A stretch of DNA of 48,770 nt from Alphaproteobacteria bacterium (GTDB taxonomy: Bacteria > Pseudomonadota > Alphaproteobacteria > Puniceispirillales > Puniceispirillaceae), in contig WTJS01000047.1 in assembly GCA_011524735.1 (NCBI GenBank), forward strand, positions 1-48,770. The letters run 5' to 3'. The notes below the pieces were generated by a model that saw only the letters and a list, made by a program, of their open reading frames with translations, did no database searches and was not told the origin of the DNA. Below, piece after piece: positions 28,492-45,411 of this stretch. Position 1 is the first letter of the stretch. The number at the start of each line of letters is the position of its first letter. Both the position numbers and the translations under genes were made by a program.

Positions 28492-31449
28492 TTAGCGAAC
28501 CCGATCCTGTTGCAGCCTGTCAATAAACAGCGCCATATGCGTGGCATCGCGCCCTGTGCCATCTCCGATCTGACAGCGACAGGACGTGCCGTCAGCCAGA
28601 ATGGCGGTTTCCGCATCTGCACCCCGAATGGCTGGCAGCAGTGAGGCTTCAGCCATGCTGATTGAAACATCATAGGTATCGCGGCCATATCCAAAGGCAC
28701 CGGCCATCCCGCAACAGGATGTCTCCACCGTTTCAACCTCCAGGCCCGCCATGTCGCGAAGGACCGATTCGATCGGGCGCACGGCATCAAAGGCTTTCTG
28801 ATGGCAATGACCATGCAGCTTTACCGGTGGACCACCAGCCAGACCAAGGTCAGGTTCATCCGCCGCAAGAAGTTCGGCAAAGGTCAGCGTTGCTGCGGCC
28901 ACAACATCGGCCTTCTCACTGCTCAGCAGCCCGGGCACCTCGTCACGGAGCGCCAGTGTGCAGGACGGCTCCAGCCCCACAATACGCACACCGGCTCTGG
29001 CCAGCGGATAAAAGGCGTCGACAAGCCGATTGGCTTCGCCGCGCGCTGCATCCACCATGCCTGATGACAGATAGGTCCGCCCACAACAAAGCGGCCGACC
29101 CGTTGCCGGAGAAGGAGCGAAGACGTCATAGCCAGCCCGTTCCAGAACGCGCACGGCTGCCCGCAGATTTTCCGGTTCAAAATACCGGTTGAAGGTGTCG
29201 GCAAACAGGACAATCGGCGTGCCGTTGCCGGTTGGTGCATTGCCAATCTCTCCATCACGAAAGGCATTGGCATGCCACTTTGGCAACGCCCGCTTCGTGG
29301 TAAAGCCGGTCAGTCGGGACACAATGCTGGACACAAGCGGTATGTACCGCCAGCCAGACTGCAGCAAATTGGCAAGGGACGAGAGCCTTGATGCCAAAGG
29401 CGCATAGGCGGGCAGATTGCCAACCAACCTGTCATGAAGAGACATGCCATGCTTTGCGGCATGTGCAGCGGTTACTTCGACCTTCATGCGCGCCATATCC
29501 ACACCAACAGGACATTCCCGCTTACAGGCCTTACAGGACACACACAGCTTCATCGTGTCCTGCATCGCCTGGCTTGTCAGCGCATCCGGCCCAAGCTGAC
29601 CAGACATCGCAAGGCGTAGCGAATTGGCGCGTCCCCGCACGGCGTCACGTTCGTTGCGGGTGGCTCGATATGACGGGCACATCACTCCGCCAGCGAGCTT
29701 ACGACACGCCCCATTATTGTTGCACATCTCAACCGCACCCTGAAAACCACCACCAGCTCCTGGCCAGTCAGCCCAGTCCAGAACTGTGTCCATTTCCTCG
29801 ACCCCATAGCCCGGCGCAAACCGGAACAGCGATCGATCATCCATCTTTGGCGCATCGACAATCTTGCCGGGGTTGAACATGCCAGCAGGGTCAAACATCG
29901 ATTTCACATCACGGAACAGTTTTGGCAGCACCGGCCCGAACATCGTATCGTTGAATTCTGACCGCACGATCCCGTCACCATGCTCACCAGAATGCGACCC
30001 GCCGAAGGCACGAACAAGGGCGAAGGCATCCTCAGCAATGGCACGCATGGTGGCAGCGCCATCAGCCTGTTTCATATTCAATACCGGCCGCACATGCAGG
30101 CAGCCGACCGAGGCATGCGCATACCATGTTCCCTTGGCGCCATGACGCTCAAAAATTTGCGTGAGCTGATCGGTATATTCGGCAAGGTCCTTGAGTTCGA
30201 CAGCGCAATCCTCAAGGAAGGACACCGGCTTTGCCTCACTCTTCATGCTCATCATGATGTTCAGACCAGATTTGCGCATCTCGGCAACGCGGCCCTGCAT
30301 CGCCGGGTCAATCGCATCAACAACCCCGCCGCGCCACTCATCCCCCTTGTCCCAGCCAAAGCCAAGTTCCGCCATAAGGTCATGAAGCTGGCGAAGACGA
30401 CGGTGGTTTTCCTCCATGTCATCTTCGGCAAACTCAACCACCAGAAGTGCGGCGGGATTTCCGCGGACGGCTTCTTCAACCGTTTTCTGGAAAATAGGAA
30501 TCGAGCGGGCCAGCGCAATCATCGTGTCATCGATCAGTTCGACCGCGACAGGGTCCAGCGTGACCAGATGCTGGGCGGCATCCATCGCCTTGTAGAAAGT
30601 GGGGAAATGGCAGATCCCCATCAGCTTCTGTGCTGGTAAGGGCCATAATTTCAGCTCAATCGCGGCACTGTAGGCAAGCGTTCCTTCCGATCCGACAAGA
30701 AGATGTGCCAGGTTGATCCCGTCACCTGCGGCACCGCCAGGGCGCAACGCCATCGCATCGGGCATCAGCGAGTCGATGTTGTAGCCACCAACACGGCGAA
30801 GCACTTTGGGAAAGCCTTCAAGAATATCGCCTGCATGATCAGACCCCATGGCCAGCAGTTGGGGCAGTAAATCGGCCAGCATACCCTCAGCCCTTGTGGC
30901 TTCCAGATCGGCAAAGCGTGACCTAGACCCGTCAGCCATGATCGCGTCAATGGCGGTAACATTGTCTCGCATCATGCCATAGCGGATCGACCGTCCACCG
31001 CAGCTGTTATTGCCGGCCATCCCGCCAATGGTGGCGCGGCTGGATGTTGAAACATCCACGGGGAACCACAACCCATGCGGTTTCAGCTGACGGTTCAGTT
31101 CATCCAGCACGATTCCAGGCTCGACAACGCAGCGCCTGCCTTCCACATCCAGTTCCAGAATACGGTTCAGATGCTCGCTATTATCGATCACAATGGCGTG
31201 GTTGACCGTCTGCCCACATTGCGATGTGCCGCCGCCCCGCGGCAACACGGCCAGACCCTCAGCCCGGGCGAAGTCCAGTGCGGCTTCCACGTCAGCCAGT
31301 GTTTCAGGAACCACCACCGCATGTGGCATCATCTGATAGATTGATGCATCGGTTGCGTAACGCCCACGCGCAAACAGATCATCGAACAGCATGCCCTGAA
31401 GATTGGCTTTCAGTGGGGCAAATGATGGTATTTTGACTTCATTCGGCAT
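28492..31449 (-). CDS. FAD-linked oxidase with Fe-S and CCG domains (YdiJ-like)
   Basis: A 985-residue flavoprotein with three parts. An FAD-binding PCMH-type domain (about 40-280, VLPRGGGTSQCGQTVN and SSRATIGGMAGNNSCGGRSIRYG) leads into the FAD-oxidase C-terminal domain (about 280-560, with GSHSGEHGDGIVRSEF). A ferredoxin-like cysteine cluster follows near 633-645 (CVSCKACKRECPVG). Two CCG modules complete it (LCCGRTYLSSG about 788; SCCGMAGAFGYG about 915). This architecture is shared with YdiJ, a D-2-hydroxyglutarate dehydrogenase in E. coli, and with D-lactate dehydrogenases of the Dld family. It oxidises a D-2-hydroxy acid and passes electrons to the quinone pool or a partner. The next island could supply hydroxy-acid substrates, but this link is speculative. 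Confidence 0.92.
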   Translation of the reverse strand: MPNEVKIPSFAPLKANLQGMLFDDLFARGRYATDASIYQMMPHAVVVPETLADVEAALDFARAEGLAVLPRGGGTSQCGQTVNHAIVIDNSEHLNRILELDVEGRRCVVEPGIVLDELNRQLKPHGLWFPVDVSTSSRATIGGMAGNNSCGGRSIRYGMMRDNVTAIDAIMADGSRSRFADLEATRAEGMLADLLPQLLAMGSDHAGDILEGFPKVLRRVGGYNIDSLMPDAMALRPGGAAGDGINLAHLLVGSEGTLAYSAAIELKLWPLPAQKLMGICHFPTFYKAMDAAQHLVTLDPVAVELIDDTMIALARSIPIFQKTVEEAVRGNPAALLVVEFAEDDMEENHRRLRQLHDLMAELGFGWDKGDEWRGGVVDAIDPAMQGRVAEMRKSGLNIMMSMKSEAKPVSFLEDCAVELKDLAEYTDQLTQIFERHGAKGTWYAHASVGCLHVRPVLNMKQADGAATMRAIAEDAFALVRAFGGSHSGEHGDGIVRSEFNDTMFGPVLPKLFRDVKSMFDPAGMFNPGKIVDAPKMDDRSLFRFAPGYGVEEMDTVLDWADWPGAGGGFQGAVEMCNNNGACRKLAGGVMCPSYRATRNERDAVRGRANSLRLAMSGQLGPDALTSQAMQDTMKLCVSCKACKRECPVGVDMARMKVEVTAAHAAKHGMSLHDRLVGNLPAYAPLASRLSSLANLLQSGWRYIPLVSSIVSRLTGFTTKRALPKWHANAFRDGEIGNAPTGNGTPIVLFADTFNRYFEPENLRAAVRVLERAGYDVFAPSPATGRPLCCGRTYLSSGMVDAARGEANRLVDAFYPLARAGVRIVGLEPSCTLALRDEVPGLLSSEKADVVAAATLTFAELLAADEPDLGLAGGPPVKLHGHCHQKAFDAVRPIESVLRDMAGLEVETVETSCCGMAGAFGYGRDTYDVSISMAEASLLPAIRGADAETAILADGTSCRCQIGDGTGRDATHMALFIDRLQQDRVR

Positions 31450-31640
31450 GGGATATCTCGGTCTATGCTAGCTGGCATTCCTTTTGGCGGTCTGGTGTCA
31501 ACCGTCCTTTACCGGCGATTCGTAACGGCGTAAAAAACAGCCAGAATGACACAGTACAGTGCTCTCACCTGTTAGATGTTGTGCAATAGCGTCGCGGGTC
31601 TGGTCACACTGTTGTTTCGCCTCCACAAAAAACGTAGGGT

Positions 31641-31656
31641 ATTTGGTATCCCATTC
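31641..31656 (+). promoter_or_regulatory. Operator-like site A, upstream of the class V aminotransferase
   Basis: ATTTGGTATCCCATTC matches the left half of the island's shared palindrome ATTTGGTATACCAAAT; the right half is degenerate. It ends 21 bases before the aminotransferase start codon. A GntR/FCD-type dyad (GGTATACC core) is the inferred nature. Confidence 0.7.
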
Positions 31657-31677
31657 CAACGTGAAAGATTATCGCAG

Positions 31678-32865
31678 ATGACTTCCAGTACATATAAGGC
31701 CGGGCGGCATTTCCTTCAGATTCCTGGACCAACCAATGTTCCCGACCGCGTTCTGCGCGCCATGGACTATCCGACAATTGATCATCGTGGTCCGGATTTT
31801 GCCAAGCTTGGAAAGCGTTGCCTTGACGGTATGAAGACCATTTTCAAAACAGAATCTTCCGTCATCATCTATCCGGCATCTGGCACGGGCGCCTGGGAAG
31901 CTGCCCTTGCCAATCTACTGGTCGAAGGCGACCTGGTGCTGATGGTGGAAACCGGACACTTCGCGACATTGTGGAAGAAAATGGCCGACAGGCTTGGGGT
32001 GGAAACTGAATTTCTGGAAACAAACTGGCGGCATGGCGTTGACCCGCAGGCAATTGAAGATCGGCTTCGCGCCGACAGTGAGGGCAAGATCCGAGCGGTT
32101 TGCGTCGTTCATAATGAAACCTCAACCGGATCAACGTCCCGTATTGGCGAAGTTCGGGCGGCGATGGATGCGGCCGGCCACGGTGCCCTGCTGATGGTTG
32201 ACACCATTTCGTCACTTGCCTCTATCGATTTCCGTCATGATGAATGGGGCGTTGATGTCACCGTATCAGGATCGCAGAAGGGTCTGATGCTACCCCCTGG
32301 CCTGTCCTTTAATGCCCTGTCCGAACGCGCCATCACCGAAGCCAAGTCAAACGGCATGCGCCGGTCTTACTGGGACTGGCAGGAACAGCTTGCCGCCAAT
32401 AAGGATGGGGCCTTCCCTTACACCCCGGCAACAAACCTGCTGTATGGCCTTGCGGAAGCCATCGACATGCTCCACGAGGAAGGCCTTGAGGCTGTCTTCG
32501 CCCGGCATGACCGTCACGCCGAAGCCACACGCCGCGCCGTGCAGGCCTGGGGACTGGAAGTTCTCTGTCAGGAACCTCGTGATTATTCCAGCTCGCTGAC
32601 CGCTGTTCTCATGCCGGAAGGTCACAGTGCTGATGCCTTCCGCGCGACGGTTCTGAAGCATTTCGACATGTCGCTTGGGAACGGGCTTGCCAAGCTTGCC
32701 GGCCGGGTTTTCCGAATCGGACATCTTGGTGACTTCAACGATCTGATGCTGACCGCAACATTGAGTGGTGTTGAAATGGGTCTCCGCGTTGCCGACGTCC
32801 CACATCAGTCGGGCGGCACAAATGCAGCGATGCAATATCTCTCCGAAACAGCTGCCGCTGCTTGA
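31678..32865 (+). CDS. Class V aminotransferase (serine/alanine-glyoxylate type)
   Basis: A 395-residue PLP aminotransferase of the serine/alanine-glyoxylate group. The N-terminus HFLQIPGPTNVPDRVLRAMDYPTIDHRGPDF is typical. The PLP lysine is K201 in SGSQKGLMLPPG, and D175 in VDTISSLAS contacts the pyridine ring. It should move an amino group between glyoxylate or another 2-oxo acid and serine or alanine. An open frame extends upstream to 31576, but the ATG at 31678 (MTSSTYKAGRHF) fits the family and leaves operator site A outside the gene. A crotonase follows 57 bases later, so the two form the first plus-strand unit of the island. A glyoxylate-forming or hydroxypyruvate-forming step may exist elsewhere in the pathway. 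Confidence 0.9.
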   Translation: MTSSTYKAGRHFLQIPGPTNVPDRVLRAMDYPTIDHRGPDFAKLGKRCLDGMKTIFKTESSVIIYPASGTGAWEAALANLLVEGDLVLMVETGHFATLWKKMADRLGVETEFLETNWRHGVDPQAIEDRLRADSEGKIRAVCVVHNETSTGSTSRIGEVRAAMDAAGHGALLMVDTISSLASIDFRHDEWGVDVTVSGSQKGLMLPPGLSFNALSERAITEAKSNGMRRSYWDWQEQLAANKDGAFPYTPATNLLYGLAEAIDMLHEEGLEAVFARHDRHAEATRRAVQAWGLEVLCQEPRDYSSSLTAVLMPEGHSADAFRATVLKHFDMSLGNGLAKLAGRVFRIGHLGDFNDLMLTATLSGVEMGLRVADVPHQSGGTNAAMQYLSETAAAA

Positions 32866-32922: not shown

Positions 32923-33714
32923 ATGAGTGTGCAGGACGAACTTCAGTTCACGGCCAGAGATGGCATTGGCCATATTGTACTGAACCGGCCACATCGCCGG
33001 AACGCCATGACGTTCGACATGTATGCCCGGATCCGAGACATCTGCACCATGGCCGGAGGCAAGGATGATCCAGATGGGTTGAAGGTTCTCGTGTTTTCGG
33101 GCGGGGGCGATGCCGCCTTCGCCGCCGGCACTGACATCTCGCAGTTCAAGACCTTCACCAGTCAGGACGCCATTGAATATGAAGCCATGATCGATCGGAC
33201 GCTGGTTACGATTGAGGAATGTCGCCTGCCGACCATTGCCGCACTAAACGGGTTCTGTACAGGTGGCGGCGCTGCCATTGCAGCCTGTTGTGATATCCGG
33301 ATTGGCAGCCGTGATTTGAAAGTGGGCGCCCCCATCGCGCGCACGCTTGGCAACTGCCTAGCCATCGGTAATCTCAGCCGCTTTGTCAGGCTTGTTGGTG
33401 AAGCAAGGGTCAAATATATGCTGTTAACAGCGCAACTCATTGATGCCGACGAGGCGGCCTCTGCCGGCTTTATTTCAGAACTTCTGGAAGACCGAGATGC
33501 CATGCTGGCGCGCGCAGAGGAGCTTGCTGGCACCATCACCGAGCTGGCCCCACTCACACTCGACGCCACCAAACGCGGCCTGCGCAGGCTGCAGGCGGTG
33601 ACGCCTCTGCCCGATGATCATGATCTTGTCGAACAATGTTTTGGCAGTGCTGATTTCAAGGAAGGCATTTCGGCCTTCTTCGAAAAGCGCAAGCCAGACT
33701 GGAAAGGTGTCTAG
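32923..33714 (+). CDS. Crotonase-family protein lacking both catalytic glutamates
   Basis: A 263-residue enoyl-CoA hydratase/isomerase-fold protein. The oxyanion-hole segments are present (DAAFAAGTDISQF and NGFCTGGGAAIAACCDIRIG). The two Glu residues of rat crotonase (E144, E164) correspond to Ala in GGGAAIA and to a non-acidic residue in GAPIART. It is therefore unlikely to hydrate enoyl-CoA in the standard way. It may catalyse a decarboxylation, dehalogenation, hydrolysis or isomerisation with other residues, as elsewhere in the superfamily. It has an AGGGAGACACAG ribosome site and follows the aminotransferase. A second, more distant paralogue lies on the opposite strand of the same island. 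Confidence 0.88.
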   Translation: MSVQDELQFTARDGIGHIVLNRPHRRNAMTFDMYARIRDICTMAGGKDDPDGLKVLVFSGGGDAAFAAGTDISQFKTFTSQDAIEYEAMIDRTLVTIEECRLPTIAALNGFCTGGGAAIAACCDIRIGSRDLKVGAPIARTLGNCLAIGNLSRFVRLVGEARVKYMLLTAQLIDADEAASAGFISELLEDRDAMLARAEELAGTITELAPLTLDATKRGLRRLQAVTPLPDDHDLVEQCFGSADFKEGISAFFEKRKPDWKGV

Positions 33715-33792: not shown

Positions 33793-33843
33793 TGACCTAC
33801 TCAGATGGTGGGCCAAGCCAGCCAGTCAGCGGGAGATCACAAG

Positions 33844-35268
33844 GTGGATTTTGCACATTATATCGGCGGCGCATGGGTTGCTGACACGGACGTTACAACC
33901 AACCGTAACCCGGCCAATCAGGACGATATCATTGGCACCTATGCGCGCGGTACAGCTGCACGGGTAGATGAAGCGGTTGCTGCCGCCCTTGATGCCCAGC
34001 CAGCCTGGGCAAGCGCCAGCCCACAGATTCGCCATGATGTTTTGGAAGCTGCCGGCGCGCTAATCATGGCACGCAAGGAAGAGCTTGGGAAACTTCTGGC
34101 CCGGGAAGAAGGCAAGACCATCGCCGAAGCGACGGGGGAAACCATCCGGGCCGCTCAGGTATTCAAATTCTTTGCTGGTGAGGCGCTCCGCAATACCGGT
34201 GATGCTGTCGCCTCAGTGCGGCCTGGCATCGATGTGATGATTGAACGGGAAGCGGTTGGCATTGTTGGCCTGATCACACCATGGAACTTCCCCATTGCCA
34301 TTCCAGCGTGGAAGCTGGCACCGGCGCTTGCCTTCGGGAATGCGGTGGTGATGAAGCCGGCCGAACTGACCCCGGGCTGTGCGTGGGAACTTGCCAAAAT
34401 CCTTGATGAAGCGGGATGCCCCGCTGGCATTTTCAATCTGGTGATGGGACCCGGCTCACAGGTTGGTGCCCGTATTGTCGATCATCCCGACATTGCCGCC
34501 GTAAGCTTCACCGGATCGGTGGCAACTGGCCGTCAGGTCGCTGTGCGCTGCGCCGAACTTGGCAAAAAAGTGCAGATGGAGATGGGCGGCAAGAACCCGA
34601 TGGTTGTCGTCGACGATGCCGATCTTGACGTGGCCGTGGGCGCTTCGCTGAATGGGGCCTTCTTTTCCACCGGTCAGCGATGCACCGCCTCATCACGCCT
34701 GATTGTCACTGCCGGCATTCATGATGCCTTCCTTGACAAGCTGACCGCGGCTGCGGCTGATCTGGTGGTTGGTGACCCGCTGGATACCAAGACCCAGATT
34801 GGTCCTGTGGTGGATCAGGGTCAGCTTGATCAGAATCTGAAATATCTGGCACTGGCATCTGAAGAAGGATGCGACGTCCGCGGCGGTGGGCTTGGCAATG
34901 GCAACGGGTTTTTCATGCACCCTGCCGTCTTTGCTGGGGCTAGCAACAGCATGCGCGTCTCACGTGAAGAAATCTTTGGGCCAATGGCTTCGGTCATCAA
35001 GGTCGGCGACTATGACGAAGCGTTGGCAGTTGCCAATGATACTGAATTCGGTCTGTCTGCCGGCATTTGTACCAGCTCGCTCAAATATGCGACGGATTTC
35101 CGGCGGAATTCTAAAGCTGGAATGGTCATGGTTAATCTGCCAACCGCAGGTGTCGACTATCATGTACCCTTTGGCGGTCGCAAGGGATCAAGCTATGGCC
35201 CGCGGGAACAGGGCAGCTATGCGCGTGAATTCTACACCGTCGTTAAGACAAGTTATATTGCACCATAA
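33844..35268 (+). CDS. Aldehyde dehydrogenase, alpha-ketoglutaric semialdehyde type
   Basis: A 474-residue NAD(P)-dependent aldehyde dehydrogenase. The catalytic Cys is C280 (FSTGQRCTASSRL) and the general base E246 is in MEMGGKN. The diagnostic ends NGAFFSTGQRCTASSRL and AGVDYHVPFGGRKGSSYGPRE closely resemble known alpha-ketoglutaric semialdehyde dehydrogenases. These make 2-oxoglutarate in the oxidative (Weimberg) pathways of arabinose, xylose and glucarate and in hydroxyproline breakdown. I choose the GTG at 33844 (VDFAHYIGGAWV, preceded by GGGAGA); an ATG at 33805 would add 13 residues and has no ribosome site. It opens the operon ALDH-DapA-GntR-PdxA2-enolase. Confidence 0.88.
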   Translation: MDFAHYIGGAWVADTDVTTNRNPANQDDIIGTYARGTAARVDEAVAAALDAQPAWASASPQIRHDVLEAAGALIMARKEELGKLLAREEGKTIAEATGETIRAAQVFKFFAGEALRNTGDAVASVRPGIDVMIEREAVGIVGLITPWNFPIAIPAWKLAPALAFGNAVVMKPAELTPGCAWELAKILDEAGCPAGIFNLVMGPGSQVGARIVDHPDIAAVSFTGSVATGRQVAVRCAELGKKVQMEMGGKNPMVVVDDADLDVAVGASLNGAFFSTGQRCTASSRLIVTAGIHDAFLDKLTAAAADLVVGDPLDTKTQIGPVVDQGQLDQNLKYLALASEEGCDVRGGGLGNGNGFFMHPAVFAGASNSMRVSREEIFGPMASVIKVGDYDEALAVANDTEFGLSAGICTSSLKYATDFRRNSKAGMVMVNLPTAGVDYHVPFGGRKGSSYGPREQGSYAREFYTVVKTSYIAP

Positions 35269-35282
35269 GGAGTGTTCGACCC

Positions 35283-36200
35283 ATGACACAGCGTCCCTAT
35301 CACGGTATCTGGCCAGTCGCCCCGACACCCTTCACCGAAAATGGTGCCATCGATGATGACGGCATGCGCCGGGTGCTGGACTGCGTGATTGATCAGGGAT
35401 GTGATGGTCTCTGTATCCTTGCCAATTTTTCCGAGCAGTTTCTGATTTCAGATGCCGAGCGGGATCACCTCATGGAACTGTGCCTGACCCATGTAGATGG
35501 ACGCGTGCCGGTGATTGTCACAATCAGCCATTTCGCAACGGATATCGTTGTTGCAAGGGCCCGCCGGGCCAAGGAGCTTGGCGCGGCCATCGTAATGATG
35601 ATGGCGCCCTATCACGGGGCCTTGCTGAAAGGGACGGCGCAGCAGACCTTTGACCAGTTCCGGATCGTTGGCGATGTCGGCATCCCCATCATGATTCAGG
35701 ATGCGCCTCTGTCAGGTGTCGATCTGCCAGTACCGCTGCTGGCCAGAATGGCCACTGAAATTGAAATGGTGAAGCTGTTCAAGATCGAATCGACAGGGGT
35801 CGCCAATAAGATTCGTGCTCTGATCGATGCGGCAGGCGACGCCATTGAAGGCCCCTTTGATGGCGAGGAAGGCATTACCCTTCTGGCCGATCTTGACGGC
35901 GGCGCGACGGGGTCCATGACATCGGCCATGATCCCTGATCTGATCCGGCCGGTGATTACGGCGCATGCTGCCGGTGATCGCAACGCGGCCGTTGCAGGCT
36001 ATACGCGCGTGCTACCAGCCATCAATCATGAAAACCGCCAGTGCGGTTTCCGCGCAGCAAAAGCCGCGATGGTTGAAGGCGGCGTTATCAAGTCGGATTT
36101 CTGCCGTCACCCGATCGACCCTCTCCCCGATGCTACCCGCAATGAGCTTCTTGGGCTGCTTCGGGATCTGGATCCAATTGTGCTGAACTGGGGAAAATAG
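35283..36200 (+). CDS. DapA-family aldolase/dehydratase with a missing tyrosine
   Basis: A 305-residue (beta/alpha)8 member of the dihydrodipicolinate synthase family, using a Schiff-base lysine. K167 in VKLFKIESTG aligns with the family lysine. The residue where DapA has its catalytic Tyr (IxLYNVP) is Gln here (IMIQDAP), and the usual GTTGE loop is replaced by ANFSEQF. It is therefore not a lysine-pathway enzyme. Its neighbour suggests cleavage or dehydration of a 2-keto-3-deoxy sugar acid to the semialdehyde that the ALDH oxidises. The start ATG is 15 bases after the ALDH stop with AAGGAG before it, and gntR follows after 3 bases. Confidence 0.88.
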   Translation: MTQRPYHGIWPVAPTPFTENGAIDDDGMRRVLDCVIDQGCDGLCILANFSEQFLISDAERDHLMELCLTHVDGRVPVIVTISHFATDIVVARARRAKELGAAIVMMMAPYHGALLKGTAQQTFDQFRIVGDVGIPIMIQDAPLSGVDLPVPLLARMATEIEMVKLFKIESTGVANKIRALIDAAGDAIEGPFDGEEGITLLADLDGGATGSMTSAMIPDLIRPVITAHAAGDRNAAVAGYTRVLPAINHENRQCGFRAAKAAMVEGGVIKSDFCRHPIDPLPDATRNELLGLLRDLDPIVLNWGK

Positions 36201-36203
36201 AGC

Positions 36204-36914
36204 ATGGGCAAGCAGGCAACCCTGAACAACCTCGTTGAGATTGGTGATATCAAGCCAAGCCAGCGCCGGTCTCTGAGCGCAGAAACAGCCGATAAGCTGC
36301 GGGAACTGATCCTGCTGGAAAAGCTGCCACCGGGCATGCATATTCCCGAACGCGATCTGGCAGAAGTGCTTGGCATCAGCCGCACCCCGATGCGTGAGGC
36401 GCTGCGTATTCTTGAAAGTGAAGGGCTGGTTGATTACACCGCGACCCGGCGATCACGAGTTGCCAACCCCTCGCTTGAGGAACTGTCAAACAGCATGAAG
36501 GTTCTTGGCTCACTTGAGGCGCTCGCCGGAGAGCTTGCCTGTGCTAATGCAACCGATGCAGAGCTTGAAGAAATTGCCATTCTGGACCAGCAGATGTCAG
36601 ACGGAAGCAATAACATGCTGTCGATTGATTTCTTCAAGACGGACATGCAGTTCCACACAACCATTGTTGCGGCCAGCCGCAATGAATCCTTGATCGACAC
36701 ACATCAGAAATTCAACGCACGGCTTTGGCGGGCACGCTTTCTGTCATCGCGGAAGATTGATGCGCGCGTGACAACACTGAACCAGCATAATGACATCACT
36801 GATGCGCTGACCCGCAGAGATGCCAAGGCAGCAGCCGAGGCCATGCGCATCCACATTGAAACAGCCATTGGCAATCTTGTTATGTCCGATGACGGACAGG
36901 AGACTTCATCATGA
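36204..36914 (+). CDS. GntR-family regulator with FCD domain
   Basis: A 236-residue transcription factor. The N-terminal winged helix-turn-helix spans about 25-90 (LPPGMHIPERDLAEVLGISRTPMREALRILESEGLV). The FCD effector domain (about 95-225) has the likely metal tetrad D147, H151, H195, H217. Such regulators usually bind small organic acids and repress catabolic operons. It sits in the middle of the operon it should control, three bases after the DapA homologue and overlapping pdxA2 by four bases (ATGA). The shared GGTATACC-centred sites of the island have the symmetry expected for FCD-type GntR operators, so it is the best candidate for their regulator; this is inference. Confidence 0.93.
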   Translation: MGKQATLNNLVEIGDIKPSQRRSLSAETADKLRELILLEKLPPGMHIPERDLAEVLGISRTPMREALRILESEGLVDYTATRRSRVANPSLEELSNSMKVLGSLEALAGELACANATDAELEEIAILDQQMSDGSNNMLSIDFFKTDMQFHTTIVAASRNESLIDTHQKFNARLWRARFLSSRKIDARVTTLNQHNDITDALTRRDAKAAAEAMRIHIETAIGNLVMSDDGQETSS

Positions 36915-37915
36915 AACCGCGTATCGGCATTATTCCAGGTGATCCGGGCGGCATTGGCCCAGAATTGATTGCCAAACTTCTGTCCGATCCAGAGGTTGCC
37001 GAAAAGGCAGACATTCTGCTGATTGGTGACAGGCATCTTTTCGAACTTGGTCAGCGCCAAGCCGGTCAGGACATCGAGATGACGGATTGCAACGCGCGTC
37101 AGGATGAGTGGGCTTCACTCTCCGGCTTTGCCCTGCATCACCGCGACACCATTACCCCTGAAGAGGTCAGGCTTGCCGAAGTCACCTATGCCAACGGCCA
37201 TTCTGCTCTGGATAATCTGAACTGTGCTCTTGAAATGGCACGGGACGGTGTGATTGACGCCATCACTTTCGGACCATTCAACAAAGCAGCCCTGATCGAG
37301 GCTGGGCTTGGCCATGAGGATGAGCTTCACTACATGGCAGAGTTTCTGGGGGTCGAAACCTATATCTCCGAATTGAACACGCTGAACGGCATCTGGACCA
37401 GCCGGGTGTCCAGCCATATCGCTCTCAAGGACGTGTCCAGCTTCATTACTGAGCATCGCATCACTGAGGCAGTACATCTTATTGATCGCACGCTGCGGCG
37501 CTCTGGCCTCGCGCGGCCCCGCCTGTCAGTTGCCGCTCTGAACCCGCATGCCGGAGACAATGGCAATTTCGGCATGGAAGAAATTGAAGTGATCAATCCA
37601 ACGGTTGAAACGCTCCGCCAGAAGCAGGTCAATGTCGATGGGCCCTGGCCTTCGGACACTGTTTTTCTGAAAGCCAAGGCTGGTGACGTTGACGGAATCA
37701 TCACCATGTATCATGACCAGGGTCAGATTGCGCTAAAGCTTATGGGGTTTGACCGCGGCGTGACAGTACAGGGCGGCATCCCGTTTCCAGTCACAACACC
37801 CGCGCATGGTACAGCCTTCGATATCGCCGGTCAGGGAACTGCGGATGTTGGCGCAACCCGCGCAGCCTTCGATATCGCCTGTGACATGGTCAGCCATTGG
37901 GAGGCCGTTGCCTGA
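36911..37915 (+). CDS. pdxA2: PdxA2-type NAD-dependent dehydrogenase
   Basis: A 334-residue member of the PdxA family, related to 4-hydroxythreonine-4-phosphate dehydrogenase. The metal His residues are visible: H169 (VSSHIALKD), H213 (NPHAGDNG) and H268 (MYHDQGQI), with TTPAHGTAFDIAG near the C-terminus. PdxA2 paralogues in catabolic islands oxidise phosphorylated four-carbon sugar acids such as threonate and erythronate 4-phosphate. The usual partner there is a DUF1537 kinase, which is absent here. The substrate is therefore uncertain. It overlaps gntR by four bases, and the enolase-superfamily gene begins 22 bases later. It is probably not the vitamin B6 enzyme. Confidence 0.86.
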   Translation: MKPRIGIIPGDPGGIGPELIAKLLSDPEVAEKADILLIGDRHLFELGQRQAGQDIEMTDCNARQDEWASLSGFALHHRDTITPEEVRLAEVTYANGHSALDNLNCALEMARDGVIDAITFGPFNKAALIEAGLGHEDELHYMAEFLGVETYISELNTLNGIWTSRVSSHIALKDVSSFITEHRITEAVHLIDRTLRRSGLARPRLSVAALNPHAGDNGNFGMEEIEVINPTVETLRQKQVNVDGPWPSDTVFLKAKAGDVDGIITMYHDQGQIALKLMGFDRGVTVQGGIPFPVTTPAHGTAFDIAGQGTADVGATRAAFDIACDMVSHWEAVA

Positions 37916-37937: not shown

Positions 37938-39065
37938 ATGAAGATTACCGCTATCCGGGCCCATGCTCTCAGCCTTCCTGTTACGCTTGATATCACGCAG
38001 CCTGGCAAGCCGCTGAAGCATCAGGTCTGTGTCGTTGAAATCGAAACAGACGCCGGCATTACAGGACATGGCCTAACATCGATTGGGCCAGCGGTTCCGA
38101 TCAAGGCAGCGATCGATGCCATTGCCGCTCCGCAGATCATCGGCATGGATCCCATGAACCATGAACGCATCTGGGACCGTCTCTACTGGGCACTTGTACC
38201 ACGCGGACAGAGTGGTATTGGCATGCACGCCATTGCCGCCATTGACGTTGCGATATGGGACATACGCGGCAAGGCTCTTGGTCAGCCAATATGGAAGCTT
38301 CTGGGCGGCGCTCGTGACGCCTGCCCTGTCTATGTCACCTTCGGATTCGGCGTCTATGGAGATGATGAACTTGGTCCAGCCGCCGAAGCCTGGCGACAAC
38401 GAGGATTTTCACGCCTGAAAATGACCGTTGGTAACAGTGCCCTGCAACGACGGGATGAACCCCGCCTCTTAAGCGATGTTATCCGTCAGGACGAACACCG
38501 CGTTAAGGCTGTTCGTGAGGCAGCCGGCGCTGATGCCGAGCTATTCATCGATGCGAATTGCAGTCTTGATTATTTTCACGCTGTGGAGTTGGCCGGGGCG
38601 CTGATGCCCCATCACATCACCTTCTTCGAAGAACCCATCACGCAGAATGATGTACGCCAGATGGCTGACCTCAGGCGGGCCACCGGCATGCGAGTTGCCT
38701 GCGGACAGAATGAAGCGCAGTCCTACCGCTTCCGCGACATGCTGATGGCTGAAGCGGTCGACATGATCCAACCCAATGTGGTGATTACCGGCGGTTTTAC
38801 GCAATGCGCCAAGATCGCGGCAATGGCGGCAGCCTTCAATGTCAGTGTCGATAATGGCGGCGCCTGGCCGTTCTTCAACGCCCATCTTCAGGCTGGCGTA
38901 TCAAATGGTGGCCTTGTTGAAATGCATTACTCCTCAGTTGAGGCCTGCCGCCTGATCTATGACGGGTTGCCAGAGGCAGCCGATGACTGGATCAGCATGA
39001 GCGATACGCCGGGGCTTGGTTTCGACCTGAATACAGACCGGCTTGACGCGTTTCGTATCGGCTGA
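37938..39065 (+). CDS. Enolase-superfamily (MR/MLE-type) protein with an altered active site
   Basis: A 375-residue member of the mandelate racemase/muconate lactonising family. Metal ligands D205 (FIDANCS) and E231 or E232 (FFEEP) are conserved. The third position is Gln257 in ACGQNE, where relatives have Glu, though E259 is next to it. The K-x-K base pair reads K161-M-T163, so the second lysine is lost. The acid-base dyad of mandelate racemase (Asp270, His297) is Asn280 and Asn306/Gly307 here. The fold is clear, but neither a racemase nor a standard dehydratase active site is present. In context it would be a sugar-acid or other hydroxy-acid lyase. It ends the GntR operon, before the terminator shared with tctA. 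Confidence 0.87.
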   Translation: MKITAIRAHALSLPVTLDITQPGKPLKHQVCVVEIETDAGITGHGLTSIGPAVPIKAAIDAIAAPQIIGMDPMNHERIWDRLYWALVPRGQSGIGMHAIAAIDVAIWDIRGKALGQPIWKLLGGARDACPVYVTFGFGVYGDDELGPAAEAWRQRGFSRLKMTVGNSALQRRDEPRLLSDVIRQDEHRVKAVREAAGADAELFIDANCSLDYFHAVELAGALMPHHITFFEEPITQNDVRQMADLRRATGMRVACGQNEAQSYRFRDMLMAEAVDMIQPNVVITGGFTQCAKIAAMAAAFNVSVDNGGAWPFFNAHLQAGVSNGGLVEMHYSSVEACRLIYDGLPEAADDWISMSDTPGLGFDLNTDRLDAFRIG

Positions 39066-39173: not shown

Positions 39174-40682
39174 TTAGTTTACGTCCTGCTTTGCGTCCGA
39201 TGATTTGCCCTGCTTGGTAATCATCGACACGATCTGCGACCCGAACAGGCCAAGGAAGGACAATACCAGGAACAGCAGCGCAAGCGGCTGAGCCAGGATC
39301 ATCCACCAGGCGCCGTCGAACATCTTCAGTGAGTTCTGAAGATTCACCTCAACCATGTGACCAAGGATGAGACCAACGGCAATCGGTGCTACCGAGAAGC
39401 CATGACGGCGGGCGAAAAACCCAACCACGCCAAAGATCAGGGCAATCCAAACATCCAACAGCGAAGCTGCCAGCGAATAGGCACCAATCACCGACAGTGC
39501 GAATACAATCGGCCACAATATGGCGGTCGGGATCAGTGAAATACGGGCAAAAAGCTTTGCCGCATACAGCCCCATCCCGAGGAAGATGATGTTTGCCACA
39601 AGCATCGCGCCAAAAATCTGATAGACCGTGTCCACCTGTTCCGTGAACAGATAGGGCCCTGGACGCAGACCATGCACCATCAACCCGACAAGGATGATGG
39701 CCGTCGTGCCGCTTCCCGGAATGCCGAGCACCATGGTCGGCACCATTGCACCGCCGGTCGCCGCATTGTTCGCCGCTTCCGCACCAGCAATGCCTTCAAC
39801 CGAACCCTTGCCAAATTCCTCACGGTTCTTTGACCATCGCCGTGCTTCGGAATAGCCAATCATTGAGGCAACAGTCGCCCCTTCAGCTGGTAGAATACCA
39901 ATGAAGGTGCCGATGCCAGATGATCGCGCAATGGTTTTCCAGATGCGTTTGTAATCTTCACGCGTCGGCAGTTTGACCGCCTTCAACGTGACCATGTCTG
40001 CTACCAGATGCGCATTCTTTGACTGCACCAGCAGCTCCGATATGGCGAACAGTCCGATCATCACAGGTACGAAGGACAACCCTTCATAAAGCTCATAATT
40101 GCCGAACATGAAGCGCTCGATGGATGTCACGCGCTCAGCGCCAATGGTGGCAAGCCACACGCCAAAGACGCCACCTATGAGGTTCTTTACCGCGCCACCA
40201 GCACCGACACTTGCCAGCATCGATAGTCCGAAAATCGTCAGGGCAAAATATTCTGGCGGCCTGAATTCATAGGCCACCCGGGCCAACATCGGGGCAGCAA
40301 GACACAGAATAATGACTGAGAAAATCCCCCCGATCGTGCTGGACACAACGGCAACGCCAAGGGCGCGGCCGGCCTGACCACGCTGTGCCAGAGGAAAGCC
40401 GTCAAAGGTGGTTGCCGCAGCCGCGGATGTGCCGGGTGTATTGATCAGAATGGCTGTAATGGACCCGGCGAAGGTCGCCGAGACATATAACGTGGCCAGC
40501 ACGGCAATCGCGTTCACCGGCGTCATTGTCAACGTAAAGGGCAGCAGCAACGCCGCACCAGTCGTGGCACCAAGCCCGGGAAGAACCCCAATGATGATGC
40601 CGATAATCGTGGTCATGAAGATCAGTCCCAACAGGTACGGATCAAGCATGACCGAGCTCATTGCGGAAATGGCTTCAAGCAT
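39174..40682 (-). CDS. tctA: Tripartite tricarboxylate transporter permease, large subunit
   Basis: A 502-residue polytopic membrane protein of the TctA family with about ten to twelve helices. The family glycine-rich loops are present: GVLPGLGATTGAALLLPFT at about residues 32-50 and NTPGTSAAAATTFDGFPLAQ near 81-100. A second pair in the other half reads GILPAEGATVASMIGY and GIPGSGTTAIILVGLM. It is the large membrane subunit that, with TctB and the periplasmic TctC, imports a carboxylic acid using an ion gradient. The gene ends before the terminator at 39122, and tctB starts 11 bases upstream of it. The substrate is not visible. Confidence 0.94.
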   Translation of the reverse strand: MLEAISAMSSVMLDPYLLGLIFMTTIIGIIIGVLPGLGATTGAALLLPFTLTMTPVNAIAVLATLYVSATFAGSITAILINTPGTSAAAATTFDGFPLAQRGQAGRALGVAVVSSTIGGIFSVIILCLAAPMLARVAYEFRPPEYFALTIFGLSMLASVGAGGAVKNLIGGVFGVWLATIGAERVTSIERFMFGNYELYEGLSFVPVMIGLFAISELLVQSKNAHLVADMVTLKAVKLPTREDYKRIWKTIARSSGIGTFIGILPAEGATVASMIGYSEARRWSKNREEFGKGSVEGIAGAEAANNAATGGAMVPTMVLGIPGSGTTAIILVGLMVHGLRPGPYLFTEQVDTVYQIFGAMLVANIIFLGMGLYAAKLFARISLIPTAILWPIVFALSVIGAYSLAASLLDVWIALIFGVVGFFARRHGFSVAPIAVGLILGHMVEVNLQNSLKMFDGAWWMILAQPLALLFLVLSFLGLFGSQIVSMITKQGKSSDAKQDVN

Positions 40683-40693
40683 AAGGCGCTCCT

Positions 40694-41158
40694 TTATCCG
40701 TAATACCAGTTGGTGATCAGACCACGGGGGAACCGGATCTTCAGGACTTCGTCAAACAGCAGGAACAGAGACAGCGGCGTAACCACTGATACAAGGCCGG
40801 CAACATGAATGCGGCGCTCGCCCCAGCTGTAGCAGAGCACAAACATCACCACCGCAATGGCGATGAAGAAATCAGCATAGGTCGTCAGCAGATAGAAAGC
40901 TGCAAACATCGAGATGCTGACCCAGGTGGTAACCCCCTCAAGCTTGATTGGATCAGGTGGGTTCTGCTTCACCTGCCACACAAGGATCCCGATCAGGATC
41001 AGGTTGATCACCATTAGAAAAATAGGAAATGAACGTGGCTGCATGCTGTGACCGACAATCATCGGCGGCGATAGCTTCAGCTGCAGGGCCAGATAAATGA
41101 TCACCACCGAGAATACGGCTAGCAATCCTGGAACAATGAAAGGTCGCATAGATTTCAT
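40694..41158 (-). CDS. tctB: Tripartite tricarboxylate transporter small membrane subunit
   Basis: A 154-residue TctB protein with about four helices, beginning MRPFIVPGLLAVFSVVIIYLAL and ending in the amphipathic segment IRFPRGLITNWYYG. The conserved QPRSFPIFLMVINLILIGILV belongs to the second helix. It is the small partner of TctA. It lies 67 bases downstream of tctC and 11 bases upstream of tctA in one operon. The family is poorly conserved, so identification rests partly on position. Confidence 0.88.
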   Translation of the reverse strand: MKSMRPFIVPGLLAVFSVVIIYLALQLKLSPPMIVGHSMQPRSFPIFLMVINLILIGILVWQVKQNPPDPIKLEGVTTWVSISMFAAFYLLTTYADFFIAIAVVMFVLCYSWGERRIHVAGLVSVVTPLSLFLLFDEVLKIRFPRGLITNWYYG

Positions 41159-41225
41159 CCTTCGTAAGCACCCGGTGGGCAGCAGCTATGCGAAGCCGCC
41201 CACCGGTCTGTTCACGTGAGGACGA

Positions 41226-42200
41226 TTAGTCCATCAGCCCCATTTCTTTTAGGGCCGGACCAAACTCGTTGACCATCATCTTGATCTGCTCACCCCAGGC
41301 CTTGGATTCCATCGGCGAGGTTGAGTCCAGACCAGAGTTCATCAGGTAAGCCTGATACAGCGAGTGGCCCATGGCCTTGGTCATCGCAGCTTCCAGCTCG
41401 GCACGGCGCTCTTCAGACACACCCGCATGCGTTACGAAGCCACGTGTTGTAGACAGAACGAGATCAATGCCCATTTCCTTGGCGGTCTTGGCTGCAGGGA
41501 TTGGGTCCATGCGGTTCTCACCGAGGATGACCAGCGGGCAGACATCGCCAGCTTCGATTGGAGCAGACGCTTCGGACAGGTTCAGCGTACCGACGTCAAC
41601 AGCACCGGCAACAAGCTGAGTTGCCAGCTCACCGCCACCACCGAATGGGATGTAGGTTGGCATATCTACACCAAGACGCTTGGCCCAGAGATAGACTGTC
41701 AGATGGTCGATGGTGCCTGACGAGGTGCCGCCAAACTTCATCGAGTCACCAGCTTTCATGCCAGCAACAAACTCTTCAGGAGTCTTGTACGGGCTGGTCT
41801 TACAATTCACCATCAGGATCTGCGGGTCATTGGTACCGCGGGCAATTGGTGCCATATCCTCAATGGTCAGATCAGTCTTGCCCTTCGCCATCGTGATCGC
41901 GTGACCAACGGTGAAGGTAAGGACGGTATTACCGTCAGCTGGACGACCCTTGAAATACTGCATGGCAGCGGCACCACCGCCACCGCGCTTGTTAACCACG
42001 ACCATGTCCTGCTTCAGGTGACGGCGTGTACGGATCATCATCATCCGCGAGTTCACGTCGGTACCACCACCAGCGCCGGCATGGGTCACAACTTCAACAG
42101 TGCCTTCGGCAGCCGCAACAGGCATGGATGTCATAGCCATCACACCTGCCATCGACGCGATACCTACGCCTACCGACAGAATTTGTTTTGTGCTGAGCAT
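41226..42200 (-). CDS. tctC: TctC-type periplasmic substrate-binding protein
   Basis: A 324-residue periplasmic solute receptor of the TctC family. The signal peptide (MLSTKQILSVGVGIASMAGV...) ends with the AAA site near residue 31. The mature part has HAGAGGGTDVNSRMMMI, the carboxylate-binding region typical of the family, and FGGTSSGTIDHLTVYLWAK and IPFGGGGELATQLVAGAVDVG. Two cysteines (NCKTS, VCPLV) are present. It delivers a carboxylate to TctAB. Its start has a GGAGGAAG ribosome site. A long 5' leader of about 170 bases separates it from operator C, which suggests a regulated promoter. Confidence 0.94.
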   Translation of the reverse strand: MLSTKQILSVGVGIASMAGVMAMTSMPVAAAEGTVEVVTHAGAGGGTDVNSRMMMIRTRRHLKQDMVVVNKRGGGGAAAMQYFKGRPADGNTVLTFTVGHAITMAKGKTDLTIEDMAPIARGTNDPQILMVNCKTSPYKTPEEFVAGMKAGDSMKFGGTSSGTIDHLTVYLWAKRLGVDMPTYIPFGGGGELATQLVAGAVDVGTLNLSEASAPIEAGDVCPLVILGENRMDPIPAAKTAKEMGIDLVLSTTRGFVTHAGVSEERRAELEAAMTKAMGHSLYQAYLMNSGLDSTSPMESKAWGEQIKMMVNEFGPALKEMGLMD

Positions 42201-42478: not shown

Positions 42479-43321
42479 TCAATCAACCTTCAGACCAGCT
42501 TCGCGGGCGCGGTCAACCATATAGTCCCGTCCCACCAGCATATCGTCGATGCTGCCAAACCCATTGGTGTAGTGGCCGGTATATCCCATGCCTTCGATTT
42601 TCTTGAACATGGCACCGAAATCGATGGTGCCGTCGCCAGGCTGCTGATGGATCTCGTAAGACCCGTTATTGTCCGCAAGCCGCACTTCATGACACAGGCT
42701 GAAATCCATGGCGTCAATGAAATTGGCGATACCAACACCGGGCAGAAAATGCGCATGATTGGCGGTAAAGGACCAGCGCACGGCCGGGCTATCAATCTCA
42801 CGGAAAAAATGCATGCATTCCGCCGGGGTAACCGGCATGTAATTGACCTCGGCCAGCACCGGTTCCCAATTGAGGTTCTCCAGGAGCAGCAACACGCCCT
42901 TTTCAGCCGCGTAATCGCCAATACGCCGCAGACGGTCAATCGACGCCTGCATGCGAAGTTTTTTACAGGCCGTGAAGTGATACCCGCCATGAACCACGAT
43001 CCATTTCGCGTTCAGTTTGGGCGCAAGATCGATATAGGCCTTCATATAGGCATCAACCGCATCGCGGCAGAAAGGTGAGAATTCAGCAACATTCACCCCT
43101 GACAGGGTATGAAGACCAAAATTGATCCCGCTTTCATCCAGAAGCTCGCGCACCCCGGCACACCGTGCATCATCAAATGTTTCAAGCGCGTTGGGGGCGA
43201 TGTCCGTCTGCGCATCAATGAAGTGCACGTCGTTTTCAGCCGCCCAGCGAATGCCATCCTCAAGCGGCAGGCGCCTGCCAAGGTCAACACCGATCCTCTG
43301 TTTCAGTGACTTTCCAGACAT
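42479..43321 (-). CDS. TIM-barrel sugar isomerase/epimerase-like protein
   Basis: A 280-residue AP-endonuclease-2-like (beta/alpha)8 protein of the xylose-isomerase-like group, close in style to hydroxypyruvate isomerases and inosose-type epimerases. Metal-binding candidates are H in VVHGGYHF, E in LLLENLNWEPV, H in FTANHAHFLPG, and the E/H pair near the C-terminus (CHEVRLADNN and GDGTIDF). It should interconvert a keto- or aldo-sugar acid or a related hydroxycarbonyl compound. It follows the second crotonase and CoA-transferase in one leftward unit. The substrate is unknown. Confidence 0.82.
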   Translation of the reverse strand: MSGKSLKQRIGVDLGRRLPLEDGIRWAAENDVHFIDAQTDIAPNALETFDDARCAGVRELLDESGINFGLHTLSGVNVAEFSPFCRDAVDAYMKAYIDLAPKLNAKWIVVHGGYHFTACKKLRMQASIDRLRRIGDYAAEKGVLLLLENLNWEPVLAEVNYMPVTPAECMHFFREIDSPAVRWSFTANHAHFLPGVGIANFIDAMDFSLCHEVRLADNNGSYEIHQQPGDGTIDFGAMFKKIEGMGYTGHYTNGFGSIDDMLVGRDYMVDRAREAGLKVD

Positions 43322-43366
43322 GCATTCCTCCCTCTTTTGTTTTGTGATGTGTCGATCTATGCCGAC

Positions 43367-44179
43367 CTATTTCCCCTGAAATTCTGGCTTTCTCTTTTCC
43401 ATGAAGGCACGGCGGCCCTCGATATAATCCGCACTGTCAAAGCAAGCCTTGACCATGTCATCCAGACCGGCAAGGTCCAGATCGGCCTCATGCCCCTGAA
43501 GCGCCTGCGTGATCGCCTTAACCGACTCAATCGTCATGGGCGCGTTGTCGGCAATCCGGCGGGCATAATCATCCGCAAAAGCAGCTAGCATATGTGGCGC
43601 CAGCACGCGGTTCACCAACCCCATTTCATAGGCCTCTGCCGCGCTGAACTGACGCGCCGTATAGAAAATCTCTTTCACCATTGACGGACCAACAAGATTG
43701 GCAAGCCGCCTGATGCCTTCATAGCCATAGCCAAGACCAAGCTTGGCCGCTGGGACAGCAAAGCGGCTCTTATCTTCACACAGGCGCATGTCGCAAGCGA
43801 CGGCAAGCCCCATCCCGCCGCCAATACAGTATCCTTGAATGACCGCTATGGTTGGCTTGGGGAAATGAAACACCGCATCCGAAAAGGATTTTGACGCCGC
43901 GGCGTAGATATCCACATCCTCAGCTGTCGATCGTTCCTGTTCAAATTTTGAAATATCCGCGCCCGAGGCAAAGGCCTTGCCACCGGCACCACGGATTACC
44001 AGAAGACGCGCCTCAGGATCGGCCGCCATCGCTGACACCTGTTCAGCGCCAGCACGATACATGGCAAGTGAGATGGCGTTGTGGCGTTCCGGATTGTTGA
44101 TGACCAGATAGCCAACGCGATCCCTCACGCCAGCCAGAATTTTGCCATCTGCAAATTCAGCCAGACCGTCTAGCTTCAT
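43367..44179 (-). CDS. Second crotonase-family protein, catalytic glutamates absent
   Basis: A 270-residue crotonase-fold protein. The oxyanion-hole segments are clear (GKAFASGADISKFEQ and IGGGMGLAVACDMRL). As in the other crotonase of the island, E144 is Gly (GGGMGLA) and E164 falls at Ala in FAVPAAKLGLGYG. The phrase AAKLGLGYGYEGIRRL is typical of a subset of enoyl-CoA hydratase/isomerase proteins of unknown substrate. It overlaps the CoA-transferase gene by four bases (ATGA) and is followed by the isomerase. It would act on the CoA ester made by that transferase. Confidence 0.88.
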   Translation of the reverse strand: MKLDGLAEFADGKILAGVRDRVGYLVINNPERHNAISLAMYRAGAEQVSAMAADPEARLLVIRGAGGKAFASGADISKFEQERSTAEDVDIYAAASKSFSDAVFHFPKPTIAVIQGYCIGGGMGLAVACDMRLCEDKSRFAVPAAKLGLGYGYEGIRRLANLVGPSMVKEIFYTARQFSAAEAYEMGLVNRVLAPHMLAAFADDYARRIADNAPMTIESVKAITQALQGHEADLDLAGLDDMVKACFDSADYIEGRRAFMEKRKPEFQGK

Positions 44180-45360
44180 GTCACGCCCTTATCTGAAAAG
44201 GCGGCAATCTCGTCACTGGAAAAACCATATTCGGACAGAATCTCTTCCGTATGCTGACCCTTGGTTGGTGGCGGGCGGCGAATTTCAGACTTCGACCGGC
44301 TCATGATAATCGGCTGGCCAACAATCTGGCCGGGGCCACGTTCCTGAGAGACCATGTCACGGGCAATACCAAGATGCTGTACCTGCGGGCTGGCAAAGAC
44401 CTGATCGATATTGTTGATCTCACCGCATGGCACACCAATTTCAGCAAGCCGCTCTACCCAATATTCGGTGGTCTGCTTAGATGTGTTTTCATTAATGATG
44501 GCATTCAGCGCCTTACGATTAACGCTTCGCGACGGCTGATCGGCATAATCTTCATGATCCATCCGCGGATCTGCCAGCTCGTCCTTCAGGCGCAGCCAGA
44601 TATGCTGTCCAGCGCAGGCGATGTTGATATGCCCGTTTGACGTGACAAAGACCCCGGTCGGGATGGAGGTCGGATGATCATTGCCAGCCTGTTTGGGAAC
44701 ATCACCATCCATGAGCCAGCGCGCCGCCTGGAAATCCAGCATCGCGATCTGCGCCTGCAGCAATGATGTCTGCACCCACTGGCCTTCACCGGTCTTTTCC
44801 CGGCCAAGAAGCGCCAGCAGCACACCCTGCGCCGCAAAGCCGCCTGCCGTCAGATCGGCAATCGGAATACCAACTCGCATCGGACCTTCGCCCGGCGCAC
44901 CGGTGATCGACATCAGTCCGCCCATACCCTGGGCAATCTGATCAAACCCGGGACGCCCCGCCAGAGGACCGTCCTGCCCAAAGCCGGAGATCGAGGCGTA
45001 GACAATGCCAGGGTTAATGGCGCGCACGGACTCATAATCAATACCAAGACGGAATTTCACATCCGGACGAAAATTCTCGACGATGACGTCGGCCTTGGCC
45101 GCCATCTTCATAAAAATCGCGACACCATCCTCATCTTTCAGGTTCAGAACCATCGACCGCTTATTGCGGTGCAAATTCTGGAAGTCCGACCCTTCGCGCG
45201 ATCCACCCATATCCGATCCGGCGGCACTTGGCGTCTCAATCTTGATGACATTGGCGCCCCAGTCGGCAAGCTGCCGGACACAGGTCGGGCCAGACCGGAC
45301 CCGTGTCAGGTCTAGCACGGTGTAATCTGAAAGAATGTCGCTTGCTGCTTCGAAAGCCAT
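44176..45360 (-). CDS. Class III (CaiB/BaiF) CoA-transferase
   Basis: A 394-residue family III CoA-transferase that activates a carboxylic acid by moving CoA from a donor such as succinyl-CoA. The catalytic Asp is D140 in GRPGFDQIAQGMGG; the N-terminal VLDLTRVRSGPTCVRQLADWGANVIKIE and ENFRPDVKFRLGIDY are family motifs. The frame extends to 45405, but the ATG at 45360 (MAFEAASDIL) has a TGAGGAT ribosome site 6-7 bases away, so I choose it. It opens the leftward unit CoA-transferase, crotonase, isomerase. Operator site D is 51 bases upstream, the same distance as site B to its gene. Confidence 0.92.
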   Translation of the reverse strand: MAFEAASDILSDYTVLDLTRVRSGPTCVRQLADWGANVIKIETPSAAGSDMGGSREGSDFQNLHRNKRSMVLNLKDEDGVAIFMKMAAKADVIVENFRPDVKFRLGIDYESVRAINPGIVYASISGFGQDGPLAGRPGFDQIAQGMGGLMSITGAPGEGPMRVGIPIADLTAGGFAAQGVLLALLGREKTGEGQWVQTSLLQAQIAMLDFQAARWLMDGDVPKQAGNDHPTSIPTGVFVTSNGHINIACAGQHIWLRLKDELADPRMDHEDYADQPSRSVNRKALNAIINENTSKQTTEYWVERLAEIGVPCGEINNIDQVFASPQVQHLGIARDMVSQERGPGQIVGQPIIMSRSKSEIRRPPPTKGQHTEEILSEYGFSSDEIAAFSDKGVT

Positions 45361-45411
45361 GAAAATCCTCACCCAACATCTATCCGGACATGTCCGGAAA
45401 CACACACTAAA

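Follow-up and report, generated by a model that had tools for sequence, protein, structure and literature searches.

The locus and its gene cluster

The window, by which we mean the whole 48,770-nucleotide stretch of DNA analysed here, carries at 37938..39065 a gene for a 375-residue enzyme with the fold of mandelate racemase (MR). We assign it to a 'QN' family, defined by a Gln at the third metal position together with an Asn at the position of D270 in MR. The gene and its neighbors are arranged as follows.

28492..31449, - strand: FAD/FeS D-2-hydroxyacid dehydrogenase-like protein (YdiJ/GlcD-GlcF like)
31576..32865, + strand: class V aminotransferase (nearest to the aspartate-glyoxylate aminotransferase BhcA, 449 bits, cut-off 650)
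32923..33714, + strand: enoyl-CoA hydratase-family protein (domain matches)
33805..35268, + strand: aldehyde dehydrogenase (nearest curated models are 2-oxoglutarate-semialdehyde dehydrogenases, below cut-off)
35283..36200, + strand: DHDPS/NAL-family aldolase or dehydratase (domain matches)
36204..36914, + strand: GntR/FCD regulator (domain matches)
36911..37915, + strand: PdxA-family dehydrogenase, 22 bp upstream of the enzyme gene
37938..39065, + strand: MR/MLE-fold enzyme of the QN family, 375 amino acids, Gln at the third metal position and Asn at the D270 position
39174..42200, - strand: TctA, TctB and TctC (binding protein, 41226-42200) of a tripartite tricarboxylate transporter (TTT), convergent with the enzyme gene
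42479..45405, - strand: AP_endonuc_2 TIM-barrel sugar isomerase-like protein, second enoyl-CoA hydratase and class III CoA transferase

The reading frame, strand and coordinates of the enzyme gene given in a preliminary description of this DNA are borne out, and its product is an MR-fold protein. Both Pfam domains are found in it (MR_MLE N, E = 1.9e-20; MR_MLE C, E = 1.7e-46), and the AlphaFold2 model (15 sequences) has a mean pLDDT of 91.8 and a pTM of 0.92, with residues 168-171 forming its weak segment. The model superposes on mandelate racemase (PDB ID 1mns) with Z = 43.8 and an r.m.s.d. of 2.1 Å over 348 residues; the Pfam matches and the superposition over ∼350 residues reveal the capping domain and the (β/α)7-β barrel of the enolase superfamily. 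The best PDB matches by profile and by fold are MR/MLE proteins, and the top structural matches belong to the MR subgroup (2ovl and 5xd7, Z = 46.5; 4h83, 45.4; 3no1, 45.0).

Several neighbors have features of their own. The FAD/FeS fusion at 28492-31449 is nearest to the D-2-hydroxyglutarate dehydrogenase YdiJ (515 bits, cut-off 1350) and probably represents another 2-hydroxyacid dehydrogenase. The DHDPS-family protein at 35283-36200 reads IQDAP where DapA-type enzymes presumably have YNVP, with its Tyr, and the region of the Schiff-base Lys (LFKIEST) is apparently kept; judged from these motifs, its reaction may be unusual too. Directly past the stop codon of the enzyme gene, two tandem copies of a 23-base unit, ATCCCATCCAACAAAAAGGGCGT, occupy 39084-39129. 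A hairpin-like GTGACAGAGCCCCGTCACGCCC stretch follows them, in the gap that separates the enzyme gene from the convergent tctA.

Active-site residues compared with mandelate racemase

We aligned the window protein with P. putida MR (23% identity), using a sequence verified to be identical to PDB ID 1MDR. K161 and T163 align with K164 and K166 of MR and T134 with S139; in the metal and hydroxyl sites D205, N207, E231 and Q257 take the places of D195, N197, E221 and E247; and in the acid/base sites N280 corresponds to D270, N306/G307 to S296/H297, H316 to H305 and E328 to E317. The main positions (all on the + strand) are listed below, with counts for 28 core QN members and 53 other MR-like proteins.

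38337..38339: T134, at the MR S139 position, carboxylate site (28/28 in the family, 5/53 others)
38418..38426: K161-M-T163, MR K164 kept and base K166 replaced by Thr (Thr/Val/Gln/Ile within the family)
38550..38558: D205, first metal ligand, and N207 (MR N197, alpha-hydroxyl binder), by alignment
38628..38630: E231, second metal ligand, by alignment and model
38706..38714: Q257-N-E259, Gln at the third metal-ligand position, by alignment
38775..38777: N280 in place of MR D270 (His-Asp dyad), by alignment
38853..38858: N306-G307 at the site of MR H297, the R-specific base, by alignment and model
38919..38927: E328 (MR E317, carboxylate acid) and H330 (candidate proton carrier, 26/28), by alignment

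K161, T163, Q257 (in ACGQNE), E259, N280 and N306/G307 are found at the numbers reported earlier, and modelling against MR, as then proposed, places the named residues at the expected ends of the barrel strands: K161 and T163 lie on strand 159-163, D205 ends strand 201-205, E231 ends 227-231, Q257 follows two residues after 253-255, N306 ends 303-306, and E328 and H330 lie on 324-330. We considered misalignment as a cause of the odd residues and rejected it, as the model, profile and MAFFT alignments concur on the strand positions.

The proton-transfer bases of MR are K166 and H297; N197 contacts the alpha-hydroxyl, E317 acts as general acid towards a carboxylate oxygen, E247 coordinates Mg and K164 forms hydrogen bonds with bound ligands (PMC9835602). 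By alignment to the verified MR numbering, the gripping residues are thus kept in the window protein (T134, K161, N207, E328, D205 and E231) and the proton-moving ones are gone, confirming the reported loss of the usual acid/base residues. We could detect no alternative conserved His/Asp pair at the barrel-strand ends when comparing the family with the 53 canonical proteins; such a pair, together with a Glu in the metal site, had been named as evidence that would overturn the assignment, and both are absent from the model and from all alignments. H316 was considered as a base and set aside: it aligns with MR H305, and this position is His in 36 of the 53 canonical proteins, so that H316 is probably structural.

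The preliminary description had also drawn attention to the Gln at the third metal position. It is present, but the substitution is already known from 3MSY, 3NO1 (with magnesium) and 4H83, which read GQTE at the third-ligand position and have both lysines, Asp274 and the His pair intact. Going by these sequences, the odd feature is the combination of Gln257 with the loss of K166, D270 and H297, rather than Gln alone. The suggestion that the metal is instead held through the adjacent E259 is weakened, because Glu257 and Glu259 occur together in 14 of the 53 canonical MR-like proteins and because a Paracoccus member reads GQNN, retaining Q257 with Asn in place of E259. We take Asn289 of glucarate dehydratase to be a metal ligand; together with the Gln of 3MSY, 3NO1 and 4H83 it makes an amide oxygen plausible as third ligand, and the side-chain amide oxygen of Q257 is by analogy a plausible candidate.

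Comparison with known systems sets the window protein apart from each of them. Mandelate racemase (1MDR/1MNS) shares the fold, metal ligands 1 and 2 and the counterparts of K164, N197 and E317, whereas its K166, H297, D270 and E247 are all replaced. The 3MSY/3NO1/4H83 proteins, which are MR/MLE proteins of a marine actinobacterium (4H83 is EFI target 502127) and whose PDB titles name no function, share GQxE with Gln at the third-ligand position (∼30% identity, Z 44-45), but 3MSY keeps K-x-K, Asp274 and His300/301 and sits on a long branch of its own, apart from the QN clade. Glucarate dehydratase (1EC7) has the amide Asn289 beside the Q257 position and, like H330, a His two residues past the strand-8 acid; it is distant in sequence, and its own K-x-K and His339, and presumably Asp313 as well, are intact. 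The 3,6-anhydro-galactonate and galactarolactone cycloisomerases (5OLC, 5XD7 and 4GGB) are among the best profile and structure matches, but in the alignments of 5OLC and 4GGB, Q257 is matched by Glu and N280 by Asp.

The same holds for the signatures of the named classes. Of the superfamily's ligand sites on strands 3, 4 and 5, D205 and E231 are present in the sequence and the third is Gln, giving Asp/Glu/Gln instead of the Asp/Glu/Glu set of the MR subgroup. The K-x-K motif on strand 2 reads KMT, and the His-Asp dyad of strands 7 and 6 is replaced by N306/G307 and N280, so that the protein lacks the K-x-K plus dyad of the glucarate dehydratase subgroup as well. Galactarate dehydratase II has a Tyr-Arg dyad on strand 2 in place of K-x-K; the window protein has K161 and T163 there. 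Among the NCBIfam dehydratase equivalogs (galactonate, talarate/galactarate, arabinonate and others), the best score is 172 bits against a cut-off of 311. The protein should be filed neither as mandelate racemase nor as any named dehydratase.

Conservation and gene neighborhoods of the QN family

Q257 and N280 are found in all 28 core members and in none of the 53 other MR-like proteins, 52 of which have Glu at position 257. K161, T134, D205, E231, N237, N314, H316 and E328 are likewise invariant in the core set, E259 is present in 27/28, and N207 and H330 in 26/28 each (H330 is Gln in the other two). N306 occurs in 26 of the 28, with Ser in one member and His in the haloarchaeal one, and neither Lys nor Arg ever occupies the position of MR K166 (Thr, Val, Gln or Ile instead). 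The counts for Q257, N280 and N306 in the core, and the absence of Q257 and N280 from the other 53, exclude chance as the source of the pattern. The haloarchaeal protein (L035, 8001-9092) has its His306 beside Gln257 and Asn280, possibly as an intermediate or a reversal. Two outliers (L105 and L106) have the Gln and the Asn and differ at the N306 position.

The earlier proposal to check whether homologues with the same residues cluster together and keep the same neighbors has a positive outcome: they do cluster and do keep neighbors, chiefly the TTT transporter. In a maximum-likelihood tree calculated with the trait columns removed, the 30 Gln/Asn proteins form one clade (SH-aLRT 99, from a quick method without bootstrap). 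A same-family search returned matches in 11 further genomes (65-84% identity, no internal stops), and a single scan of genome contigs just one distant relative. Distant relatives occur in other alphaproteobacteria and in another class of the same phylum, and plasmid-borne ones in Ponticoccus, Burkholderia, Paracoccus and Neorhizobium and on a haloarchaeal plasmid. The gene is under purifying selection: against L010, the closest ortholog used, pN is 0.12 and pS 0.71 (pN/pS ∼0.17), and the pair L010/L013 differs by 0.05 nonsynonymous versus 0.47 synonymous changes per site. That the unusual active-site residues mark a decaying gene, which had already been thought not obvious, is refuted by these values, by the intact frame, also in the 11 same-family genomes, and by the 30 proteins with the same residues.

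Where contigs are long enough to judge, gene order is kept in the window's family, from the FAD dehydrogenase, divergent from aminotransferase, enoyl-CoA hydratase, aldehyde dehydrogenase, DHDPS, GntR, PdxA and enzyme genes, to TctABC, the sugar-isomerase-like protein, enoyl-CoA hydratase and CoA transferase, which are convergent with the enzyme gene. The exceptions are L045, with no recognisable aldehyde dehydrogenase, DHDPS or GntR gene there, L046, which lacks the aldehyde dehydrogenase, and L043, with no GntR match. Linkage to the TTT importer extends further: TctA lies near the QN gene in 12 of 18 loci and TctC likewise in 12 of 18, the haloarchaeon and several plasmids included (two of the 18 loci are from the window's family). 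PrpD-family genes occur at six of these loci, and an isocitrate/isopropylmalate-type (Iso_dh-family) dehydrogenase lies directly upstream of the QN gene in L054, L056 and L057. Because PdxA and the isocitrate/isopropylmalate dehydrogenases belong to a common fold superfamily, the upstream gene may be of one kind in both branches. Five loci also encode a second MR protein with the canonical residues intact (KxK, GENL/GEDL, QFDC and PHGGHQ):

L052, 212-1423: second MR protein
L054, 7164-8411: second MR protein
L056, 10566-11930: second MR protein
L057, 10908-12107: second MR protein
L059, 15713-18100: second MR protein

Genes scoring over the curated cut-off for arylmalonate decarboxylase (AMDase) are rare: the class sample of 385 genomes has one (G061), the phylum sample of 398 likewise one (G781), the order sample a further one (G885; 248 bits, cut-off 225), and the Ponticoccus plasmid carries another. 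All but the G885 gene are located within ∼3 kb of a QN-family gene, with a gap of ∼100 bases in G061. Of the four closest relatives outside the window's family, three (L033, L049 and L058) have AMDase next to the QN gene. AMDase is not an obligate partner of the QN enzyme: no gene over the cut-off is present in the window's own genome, and the genome of G885 contains no QN-family gene. In a survey published in 2016, 61% of AMDase loci had MR/MLE genes alongside, often with TTT genes; its authors gave no function for the MR/MLE genes and stated the natural substrate of AMDase to be unknown (PMC4996985). The same arrangement of MR/MLE and TTT genes beside AMDase is seen in our three QN loci, and the MR/MLE genes of the survey likely belong to the QN family. 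We found no literature on such a residue combination, or on an MR protein with TctA and PrpD.

Possible chemistry and its alternatives

Undescribed chemistry on an imported acid appears probable, because the residues that grip a substrate are kept and those that move protons are lost. The reading we prefer, with belief and doubt about equally weighted, is that of a working metal enzyme whose substrate is a hydroxy-(di)carboxylate taken up by the cell and whose proton carrier, K161 or H330, is unconventional. The TTT transporter would import an alpha-hydroxy carboxylate, probably a di- or tricarboxylate, which would bind a Mg2+-type metal coordinated by D205, by E231 and, through its side-chain oxygen, by Q257. 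K161, E328 and T134 would grip its carboxylate and N207 its alpha-hydroxyl, and N280 and N306 might bind a further polar group rather than act as base. An enediolate would then form and collapse, one-sided water elimination or epimerisation being most likely, and K161 (or H330) would be the sole proton carrier. The product would pass to the PdxA/isocitrate-type dehydrogenase and, in the window's cluster, also to the aldolase and the aldehyde dehydrogenase, an order guessed from the family names. Speaking against either base, K164 of MR binds the carboxylate end of ligands, and two members have Gln in place of H330; the idea of a single substrate class for all members may also be wrong, since the non-transporter neighbors vary between lineages.

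A dehydratase, a DHDPS-family enzyme and an aldehyde dehydrogenase are the usual trio of non-phosphorylative sugar-acid breakdown. With DHDPS and aldehyde dehydrogenase genes in the same cluster, the window protein could be an ordinary MR-subgroup acid-sugar dehydratase feeding these two enzymes, with a shifted conventional catalyst hidden from the alignment. Sugar-acid dehydratases and cycloisomerases are among its structural neighbors, and the principle of breakdown by such a trio has been described (PMC10444878). We consider this unlikely, as the DHDPS and aldehyde dehydrogenase genes are not conserved neighbors beyond the window's family and the strand ends offer no other conserved His/Asp pair.

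The metal-bound enediolate might also arise without removal of an alpha-proton, by C-C cleavage of an acid resembling malonate, malate or citrate, through decarboxylation or a retro-aldol reaction; breaking a C-C bond would itself yield the enediolate, so that no base would be needed on either face. The canonical base positions on strands 2 (second Lys), 6 and 7 have no Lys, His or Asp in nearly all core members (with one His306), the genuine AMDase genes adjoin the QN gene at the three loci named above, and PrpD, the isocitrate-type dehydrogenases and TTT are families that handle branched di- or tricarboxylates. But a neighboring decarboxylase could itself perform that step, the window's own genome lacks AMDase, and we know of no enolase-superfamily member that works by C-C cleavage, which makes this route quite improbable to us. 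An equally doubtful extension of it would make the QN family a functional class that decarboxylates an imported branched di- or tricarboxylate, or cleaves a C-C bond in it, to reach the enediolate, and that shares a pathway with AMDase in some bacteria.

Loss of every canonical catalyst could alternatively mean that the protein is catalytically dead and kept for binding or regulation, for example as a carboxylate sensor or as partner subunit of the second MR protein, whose K-x-K, Glu, Asp and His are intact near five loci. We hold this to be very improbable, because the metal ligands and most of the substrate-gripping residues are invariant and because most members, the window's included, lack a second MR protein in their vicinity.

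Textbooks use the enolase superfamily to illustrate divergent evolution around one shared step, in which a proton adjacent to a carboxylate is removed. Within this superfamily the QN family represents a new variant: in bacteria and a haloarchaeon the grip is kept and the canonical acid/base machinery dropped, which would mean either a new base arrangement or a new route to the same intermediate. AMDase is a prized biocatalyst. Because the two genes adjoin, and the natural substrate of AMDase is stated to be unknown (PMC4996985), the substrate of either enzyme may reveal that of the other.
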